Shown piece after piece: positions 57,185-58,940 of a DNA stretch of 64,000 nt. Below the pieces are notes generated by a model. It was not told where the DNA came from, ran no database searches, and worked only from the letters and a program-made list of their open reading frames with translations. The translations under genes and the position numbers were made by a program. Within the stretch, counting starts at the first letter, position 1. Every line of letters begins with the position of its first letter. This DNA comes from Bifidobacterium simiiventris (GTDB lineage Bacteria > Actinomycetota > Actinomycetes > Actinomycetales > Bifidobacteriaceae): the NCBI RefSeq assembly GCF_019331715.1, contig NZ_JAHBBG010000004.1, positions 62,001-126,000 of the forward strand, read 5' to 3'.

Positions 57185-57236
57185 TAGCGCCCCTCACCGT
57201 CGTTGACACGCGGCTGCGGAAGCCAGTCGCCCATCC

Positions 57237-57468
57237 GTACGTTTTCGTCTAACTCGTCAGCAAGAACGTACATTGCGCGCGTCCCCATGTACGTTCTTGC
57301 TGAGGTACCGGCGGAAACGTACGCACAATTCTTTCTCATATACGCTTTTGCCGACTTTTGCCGACAGTTTCTGCAAAAGCGTACGCTACGGGAGGCTGTC
57401 TGTACGGTTTTGCAGATGATTTCGCATAACCGTACAGACATCCTTGCCGCCTGTACGGTTATGCAGAC
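57237..57468 (+). repeat. Array of nine alternating GTACG repeats upstream of an AbiEi-like gene
   Basis: A roughly 16-base unit (GTACG[T/C/G]TT-N-TGC-N-GA) occurs nine times, strictly alternating in strand, at 57237-57252 (+), 57256-57271 (-), 57289-57304 (+), 57307-57322 (-), 57340-57355 (+), 57369-57384 (-), 57402-57417 (+), 57420-57435 (-) and 57453-57468 (+). Each head-to-head pair is separated by exactly 17 bases; tail-to-tail gaps are 3, 2, 13 and 2. The 411-bp region 57185-57595 otherwise holds a DnaA box (57505-57513). The frame of the downstream gene stays open through the array, so coding cannot be fully excluded. It could be operator sites for the AbiEi-like protein or a structured RNA. 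Confidence 0.85.
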
Positions 57469-57504
57469 GCCGAGGATGGGCATTGAATTGTATGTGGAGG
57501 CGAG

Positions 57505-57513
57505 TTATCCACA
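57505..57513 (+). promoter_or_regulatory. Single perfect DnaA box
   Basis: TTATCCACA lies between the repeat array and the AbiEi-like gene. A lone box can arise by chance. Confidence 0.3.
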
Positions 57514-57595
57514 TAAAACGGTTTACCTAACAGCGTTCGACCACAGTGGTCGAATATCGCTCTTTCTCCCTGCCGTATGCCGTATCGTCCAATGC

Positions 57596-58549
57596 ATGAG
57601 AATGAATCGACGAATCGAAGACATAATGGACGCGGCGCAACAGGAGCGGCGATGCGCCGTCGGCCTCACCGACCGGGATCGTCGTGCCCTGCTACGGCGA
57701 GCGCGTGAAGGATCGCTGGAACGTCCGCATCGCAACGTATATGTCAAGAGCGGCTACTGGCGTTCCTTGACGCCCCACCAGCAGCATTTGCACACGGCGC
57801 GCGCATTGGCCAAGTTGCATCCCCGATGGGTGTTCGCCGGGTTGACGGCGGTCTGCGCCCACGGATTCGAACATCAGTACGCACTGCATCGGAATGCATC
57901 CGTATTCGTAGCCGACCCGTACGTCGGACCAAGACGTTCATCCGGCATGGTGCATCGCCTGTACATGCCGGACGTCCCGTCAACCGTCGTCGATGGATTG
58001 TGCGTGACCGGCGCGCGGCGCACGCTGATCGACTGCGCGCAGCGATATTCGTTCCGAGAGATGCTGCCGATATTCGACTCGGCCGCGCGGCACGGCGTGG
58101 ACCTAAGCGGACTGCCGGAGCTATGCCGTGAGATGGGACAGGACAGCGCAACGGTTGTCCGACTCTGCAGATATGCCGATCCCCTCAGCGAGAACGGCGG
58201 CGAATCGCTGGCGAGGGCGGTGATGGTCGACCATGGGTTCATGGTGCCGCAGTTGCAGCGGGAGTTTCCCAATCCCACGAACTTGGAAGCACCGTATCGC
58301 GTGGATTTCCTGTGGGAGTTACCGGACGGCTCAACGATCGTCGGCGAATACGATGGCATGGGCAAGTATGTGCTGAGCGACGCGCGACGCCGCACCATTC
58401 AGGCAAAAGTGCACGCCGAGCGGGAACGAGAAACCCACCTGCTGGCTCAAGGAGTGACTCGTATCGTACGGTTCGAATACGAAGATCTGATGCACCCGGA
58501 ACGTCTGGAACGCAAACTCGTGGATGCCGGAGTGCCGAAGCGACGCTAG
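57596..58549 (+). CDS. AbiEi-antitoxin-like protein with a nuclease-fold C-terminus
   Basis: The 317-residue protein joins an N-terminal AbiEi-type winged-helix regulatory part (LTDRDRRALLRRAREGSLERP...YVKSGYWRSL) with a C-terminal DUF559/Vsr-like nuclease fold: VDFLWELPDGSTIVGEYDG has the D-E-x-D pattern. A partner toxin (AbiEii) is not next to it. Such lone AbiEi-domain proteins are common in actinobacteria. The start is uncertain: 57596 is the first methionine close to the domain, without a ribosome site. The GTACG array lies upstream, so it may bind there. Confidence 0.7.
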   Translation: MRMNRRIEDIMDAAQQERRCAVGLTDRDRRALLRRAREGSLERPHRNVYVKSGYWRSLTPHQQHLHTARALAKLHPRWVFAGLTAVCAHGFEHQYALHRNASVFVADPYVGPRRSSGMVHRLYMPDVPSTVVDGLCVTGARRTLIDCAQRYSFREMLPIFDSAARHGVDLSGLPELCREMGQDSATVVRLCRYADPLSENGGESLARAVMVDHGFMVPQLQREFPNPTNLEAPYRVDFLWELPDGSTIVGEYDGMGKYVLSDARRRTIQAKVHAERERETHLLAQGVTRIVRFEYEDLMHPERLERKLVDAGVPKRR

Positions 58550-58751
58550 GAGCGTGTATTCCCGTCATTCCGCAGGATGACGTTCAATACCCACACGCAT
58601 GTGACCGACGCGGAAGATCACCCATGCGGATGAGGGCGGCCGGCCTTGATTCAGGGAAGAATGGGGAATGTCCCCGATGGTGTGTCACGACCGAATCGGC
58701 CATGATGAAAACCGTTGGAAGACGAACGATCTTTAAGGAATCGAGGCAATC

Positions 58752-58940
58752 ATGTGGTTCGCACATAAACGACGCCCCGCATTGGCTCAGGTGGCACGCA
58801 CCAGCAACGCACGACGCTACGACCGCAACGGCAACGTCACCTCGCAGACGACAATGGAAGGCATCGTCAGGCAGTTTCGATCCATTCCGCAGTCGGCACG
58901 CGAACGGCTGACCGGCTCCCCCACGGTGTACGCCCGCTGA
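58752..58940 (+). CDS. Small hypothetical protein
   Basis: A 62-residue basic protein (MWFAHKRRPALAQV...) begins after GAGGCAATC with TTTAAGGAATC further up, and is followed 26 bases later by a perfect 10-bp hairpin, so it behaves like an expressed gene. No family is recognised; it has many Arg and no membrane helix. Confidence 0.5.
   Translation: MWFAHKRRPALAQVARTSNARRYDRNGNVTSQTTMEGIVRQFRSIPQSARERLTGSPTVYAR

Follow-up and report, generated by a model that had tools for sequence, protein, structure and literature searches.

In a 64,000-nucleotide (nt) stretch of the Bifidobacterium simiiventris genome (contig NZ_JAHBBG010000004.1; hereafter the window), nine short repeat units alternate in strand ahead of a gene for a protein that combines an AbiEi-like part with a nuclease-like part. 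What is this array, and does it belong to the gene beside it? Here we report, from computation, the association of such arrays with AbiEi-like genes, the distinct units of paralogous genes, the correlation between unit and protein, the helical periods of the arrays, their dispersal, and the presence and absence of a gene-plus-array block. The window array probably belongs to a dispersed repeat family of the adjacent AbiEi-nuclease protein, as the copy linked to its gene, in a system like that of repetitive extragenic palindromic (REP) sequences and their RAYT enzymes. It is one of a set of gene–repeat pairs in gut bacteria, and this pairing is apparently undescribed so far: no title or abstract describing these arrays or their link to AbiEi genes was found in the literature searched, which most subscription journals lie outside, and the accessible main texts of PMC3733652, PMC12306157 and PMC2267715 do not mention Bifidobacterium.

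The array and the adjacent gene

The array and the gene have the following parts.

57237–57467: array of nine alternating units, from a position weight matrix (PWM) scan and a logo of 142 units
Consensus of the array unit, from the same logo: Y-GTACG-K-T-W-N-Y-GC-N-G-A
57256–57304: module 1 (units 2 and 3), with perfect 17-bp arms
57307–57355: module 2 (units 4 and 5), from the PWM scan
57369–57417: module 3 (units 6 and 7)
57420–57468: module 4 (units 8 and 9)
57596–58549, plus strand: AbiEi-nuclease gene, 317 amino acids, with its start ATG at 57596 conserved among homologues
Protein residues 2–195: AbiEi-like; residues 200–314: Vsr/I-Bth0305I-like

The PWM scan recovers the nine strand-alternating units at the coordinates given in a preliminary description of this DNA, with 15-mer unit starts at 57237+, 57257-, 57289+, 57308-, 57340+, 57370-, 57402+, 57421- and 57453+. 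The array units score 16.1–24.8, and the top match elsewhere in the window scores 11.9. A pattern made from the array, and therefore partly circular as a test of it, matches the window eight times, seven of them inside the array (1.45 expected; at least eight matches in 0 of 100 shuffles). Exactly 17 nt separate the 16-mers in all four head-to-head pairs, giving 49-bp modules as previously described, and the tail-to-tail (outer) start-to-start steps of 20, 19, 30 and 19 leave gaps that vary. The spacers had been called unrelated, which they are not entirely: the head-adjacent base is C or T in 94% of 142 units, with weaker preferences deeper inside. The sixth base of the unit does agree within the four tail-to-tail pairs of the window array; across all GTACG arrays, 35 of 63 tail-to-tail pairs agree and so do 31 of 58 head-to-head pairs, so the paired change suggested for it is not supported. 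The downstream reading frame is indeed open through the array, which had raised the alternative of a coding segment. We take the array as non-coding, because 35 of 100 same-strand periods are not multiples of three and the ATG of the closest homologue (in genome G103) lies after the array.

Arrays beside AbiEi-like genes

Regular arrays lie at 33 of 56 AbiEi-like loci in the genus (28 of 49 full-length), compared with 6 of 43 control loci (Fisher p 4.5e-6); the 56 loci are the best matches of homologue searches and are not independent; orthologues and partial matches are among them, as are L149 and L161, both parts of a single gene. The control arrays comprise 4 at 30 proA loci, three of them GTACG arrays already found and one, in G066, of a different unit with a 61-bp period, and 2 at 13 HAD loci, in G092 and in G103, the latter being the AbiEi locus itself. 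These counts rest on a third detector, which calls an array when three or more steps on one strand share a period to within 1 bp; a first detector also fires (4–6 units) on GC-rich coding DNA, and a second recovered just two modules of the window array.

Regions upstream of AbiEi-like genes yielded more arrays, of other units. Scans of the genus located 23 modules of one alternative unit in G023, with 5 more in G011 and single modules in G016 and G084; another unit had 16 modules in G066 and 1 in G020. The reversed control had 0 matches in both cases. The AbiEi-like gene of G023 (1996865–1997803) has arrays on both sides, and that of G066 (2009258–2010196) has one upstream. Paralogues within the B. 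simiiventris genome likewise carry different units: GTACG, one around AAACGGAC (L153), and CCCGGGCNTACNGCCG (L164), present to either side of the paralogue at C13:16983-17930. CCCGGGCNTACNGCCG matches this genome 149 and 150 times per strand with at most one mismatch, about 299 in total (reversed control, 1 and 7), and has no match within the window. Its copies are arrayed on contigs C1, C3, C4, C9, C13, C23 and others (L164, L200–L211), and inverted pairs keep a 32-nt step at the loci looked at. Beyond the genus, a Collinsella aerofaciens homologue (L271, NZ_OY725717.1; annotated as hypothetical), 36% identical over 83% of the protein, lies between two arrays, of 8 and 4 units starting TTTGTCTCGATCTGTAAC; the gene–array pairing is thus not confined to Bifidobacterium.

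Units and proteins vary together. In a Mantel test of 37 loci whose unit matrix had been refined, unit similarity correlates with protein identity (r 0.33, 0/5000), also when pairs of at least 70% identity are excluded (r 0.22, 0/5000); a first k-mer version over 33 loci gave r 0.21 (2/5000). Mean unit similarity is 0.35 in the 28 pairs of 55–70% identity versus 0.23 in the 151 pairs below 35%. The test set keeps four probable coding-sequence artefacts (L027, L047, L049 and L158), three of which are alike in unit at 26–30% identity and so work against the correlation.

The modal periods of 33 arrays are 51–53 bp in 10, 60–63 bp in 22 and 74 bp in one, about five, six and seven helical turns. 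For 28 of these arrays, with periods typed over from the unit-matrix analysis, a Rayleigh test against uniform periods of 45–80 gave R 0.87, a value reached in 0 of 10000 draws. Whole-turn periods are expected if the protein reads one face of the DNA. The Collinsella arrays, with a period of 80–81 bp, do not match whole turns.

Dispersal of the arrays and of a gene-plus-array block

A pattern search with the GTACG unit gave 30 matches in the B. simiiventris genome (reversed control, 3), and a PWM scan found five further arrays of 6–7 units each, with the same alternation and inner spacing. They sit between rpmE and prfA, infB and rbfA, glyA and proA, purB and a response regulator, and a U32-type peptidase and a LysE-type transporter, all look-alikes named by reading translations. 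Only one of the six GTACG arrays in this genome therefore adjoins an AbiEi-like gene. The preliminary description had linked the array to that gene; the link holds in a broader form, at the 33 loci above, mostly with paralogue-specific units that correlate with the protein. As a local operator only, it does not hold, given the five arrays away from the gene and arrays in G061 (B. amazonense) beside no close homologue.

A 41-bp module pattern with at most one mismatch was found in 5 of 112 genus genomes (13 modules in B. simiiventris, 11 in G061, 26 in G103 and one each in G094 and G102), with 107 lacking it and 0 matches to the reversed control. In G094, contig C4 (L104/L067) holds one GTACG module with another unit 61 bp on, which may be what is left of an array in this more distant species. 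A scan of named genomes returned 15 stretches: seven in B. ramosum, three in B. amazonense and five single modules, in Mycobacterium, Bacteroidia and Bacteroides metagenome-assembled genomes, Paenibacillus and B. pullorum, which we did not count as arrays.

The three array-bearing Bifidobacterium genomes hold 20 arrays and 142 units, two of the 20 (L100 and L102) being halves of one array split by contig ends. Head-to-head steps are 32 in 58 of 58 cases, partly by construction, as partner offsets of 32, 18–21 or 30 only were accepted; a looser scan agrees, with one weak edge step of 31. Two intergenic sites are occupied by an array in every one of the three species, and four more in two of them; for five arrays, the loci compared offer no counterpart. 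The occupied intergenic regions are co-directional, divergent and convergent. Where orthologous arrays align, the GTACG cores are kept, the spacers drift and the number of modules changes. In a proA tree the array-bearing species do not form one clade (two changes needed), and no array lies between glyA and proA in the relatives G022, G088 and G035. At the same gene pair in G078 (L119), a long inverted repeat with GTGACGCGGAGCGTGACACGGA arms takes the place of the arrays or terminator seen in other species.

The gene and its array also form one block, cleanly absent from a relative.

57194–58821: block of 1.63 kb, present here and largely in G103, replaced by 10 nt in G035 (blastn)

In the blastn comparison with G035, homology runs up to 57193 and picks up again at 58822; the two flanks are 88% and 84% identical. 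G004 and G019 have the HAD and isomerase genes adjacent without the AbiEi-like gene, and G103 carries the AbiEi-nuclease gene at 79% identity. The earlier suggestion of a mobile element is thus borne out in part, by the dispersed copies, the cassette absent from G035 and the gene absent from G004 and G019. A Pfam scan of 45 family members returned AbiEi models and no transposase, RAYT genes elsewhere in the genome not having been searched for. We set aside a phage or plasmid origin: viral contigs gave 0 GTACG module matches, and the protein occurs in no phage record and in two plasmid-collection records. In G092, an array of unit GACATTGTCGCGAAAC with a period of about 61 bp follows the HAD gene (L251), at the site that the cassette occupies in the window.

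Protein, mechanism and competing explanations

The structure model predicted for the AbiEi-nuclease protein has a pLDDT of 92. Its C-terminal part appears, in this model, to share the catalytic-domain fold of I-Bth0305I across 94 of 97 residues, and the putative nuclease residues are invariant in 45 of 45 members compared. A sequence search of solved structures with the protein found no match, and Foldseek none at E up to 0.001. Direct binding of the protein to the units is likely, and recognition by the AbiEi-like part is the simplest reading of the association, the correlation, the periods and the precedent of AbiEi proteins. The AbiEi-like part would bind the units as dimers or oligomers on one DNA face, fixing the 17-nt inner spacer and the array period. 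Arrays at numerous intergenic sites would together hold tens to hundreds of units, and paralogues would tend to have units of their own, as RAYTs have their own REPs; binding near the promoter would also control the AbiEi-nuclease gene. The Vsr/EDxHD-like nuclease may cut at or near the modules, after which repair would copy or move both the arrays and the block of gene plus array into intergenic regions elsewhere. Such nuclease-driven spread is a conjecture that we hold at somewhat under even weight; it agrees with the dispersal of the arrays, the block missing from G035 and the putative catalytic residues.

Some results weigh against a repeat family owned by the adjacent protein. No array was called at 23 of the 56 AbiEi-like loci, and homologues in another actinobacterial family had arrays at 0 of 29. 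In G061, arrays are present and the closest homologue is only 44% identical, and an exclusive pairing of the GTACG unit with orthologues of the window protein does not hold there; these arrays could be relics, or an assembly gap could hide the gene.

An alternative that we regard as unlikely is a regulon, in which the protein would be only a transcription factor, its own array an autoregulatory operator, the other arrays target operators, and the nuclease would have some other task. Autoregulation through inverted repeats is described for AbiEi proteins in the accessible text of PMC7319586, and retention of arrays at orthologous sites in two or three species, with conserved cores and drifting spacers, would suit operators. 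By contrast, the placement of arrays in intergenic regions of every orientation, the roughly 299 CCCGGGCNTACNGCCG copies in one genome, which are many for operators, the close relatives without arrays at the same gene pair and the invariant nuclease residues all speak against it. Less likely still, another factor binds or makes the arrays, and AbiEi-like genes only happen to occupy the same intergenic hot spots. The five GTACG arrays away from the gene and the lack of a close homologue in G061 favour this, whereas the unit–protein correlation and the paralogue-specific units on both sides of a gene would be unexpected. A structured RNA or transcript-stabilizing hairpin, also raised in the preliminary description, is very improbable: each strand folds much better than its shuffles (z -8.59 and -8.44), an outcome common to any inverted repeat, but the two fold alike, partner similarity is slight head-to-head (0.0265 of within-array shuffles reach it) and absent tail-to-tail (0.82), arrays occur in all gene orientations, and the sole Rfam hit, let-7 at 22.1 bits, is below its gathering score of 53.5.

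Among known systems, the REP/BIME sequences with RAYT (TnpA-REP; together the REPtron) are closest to the gene-linked repeat family that we favour. Both have dispersed intergenic palindromic modules in alternating orientation and, beside its own repeats, a dedicated enzyme gene, the two co-evolving as pairs (as described in the accessible parts of PMC3733652 and PMC8266576). In the B. simiiventris genome, six GTACG arrays and the CCCGGGCNTACNGCCG matches represent many dispersed, alternating intergenic repeats. The enzyme here, however, is an AbiEi–Vsr fusion and not an HUH tyrosine transposase, and the arrays have helical periods; the 142 GTACG copies share the head GTACG, the monomer is not a palindrome, and it lacks the GTAG/CGTC-tagged hairpin of REP. 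The AbiE type IV toxin–antitoxin proteins AbiEi and Rv2827c share the AbiEi fold and have alternating inverted repeats upstream with short and long gaps. According to the accessible text of PMC7319586, the AbiEi target is a pair of 23-bp inverted repeats with 3 bp between them, and Rv2827c binds two pairs with 13 bp within a pair and 4 bp between pairs, a layout that by arithmetic repeats every 63 bp, one of the periods found here. The system here differs in its added nuclease domain and in its far more numerous, genome-dispersed repeats, and no AbiEii (DUF1814) toxin gene adjoins the AbiEi-nuclease gene, where there is no room for one. The EDxHD/Vsr-type homing endonuclease I-Bth0305I appears to resemble the C-terminal part in its predicted fold, and has a long dimeric target (nearly 60 bp in the accessible text of PMC3943268); the DNA-binding part here is another, no intron or intein was seen, and cutting is only conjectured. 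A CRISPR array was rejected, as the units alternate in strand and are not single-orientation direct repeats; cas genes were not searched for.

Tentatively, and at somewhat under even weight, we propose a new class of selfish repeats in Actinomycetota, in which a fusion of an AbiEi-type winged helix with a Vsr-type homing nuclease would recognize palindromic modules of about 41–50 bp at whole helical turns and multiply them by cutting and repair into intergenic arrays, each paralogue evolving its own unit to give several independent families per genome. If so, unrecognized pairs of repeat and nuclease exist in Bifidobacterium genomes and in at least one Collinsella record. The spread of REP sequences is tied to HUH transposases, and AbiEi-nuclease would then be a second, unrelated route to REP-like spread. 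For work on how specificity changes, the pairs would also be a natural set of DNA-binding domains matched to target sites, and they would account for repeats in these species with effects on gene spacing, assembly and strain typing.

The window gene is flanked by a HAD-type phosphatase gene and, 481 bp on and on the opposite strand, a peptidyl-prolyl isomerase gene (names read from translations). In one genome searched, the AbiEi-nuclease protein had 12 matches, some of them pieces of one gene. Two boxes lie between the array and the gene.

57505–57545, plus strand: two 9–10-bp boxes, TTATCCACA (57505–57513) and TTCGACCACA (57536–57545), common to many homologues

TTATCCACA is DnaA-box-like, and TTCGACCACA stands about 31 bp beyond it, ahead of the AbiEi-like gene. 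TTATCCAC occurs within the final 180 nt upstream of 30 of the 56 homologue loci.
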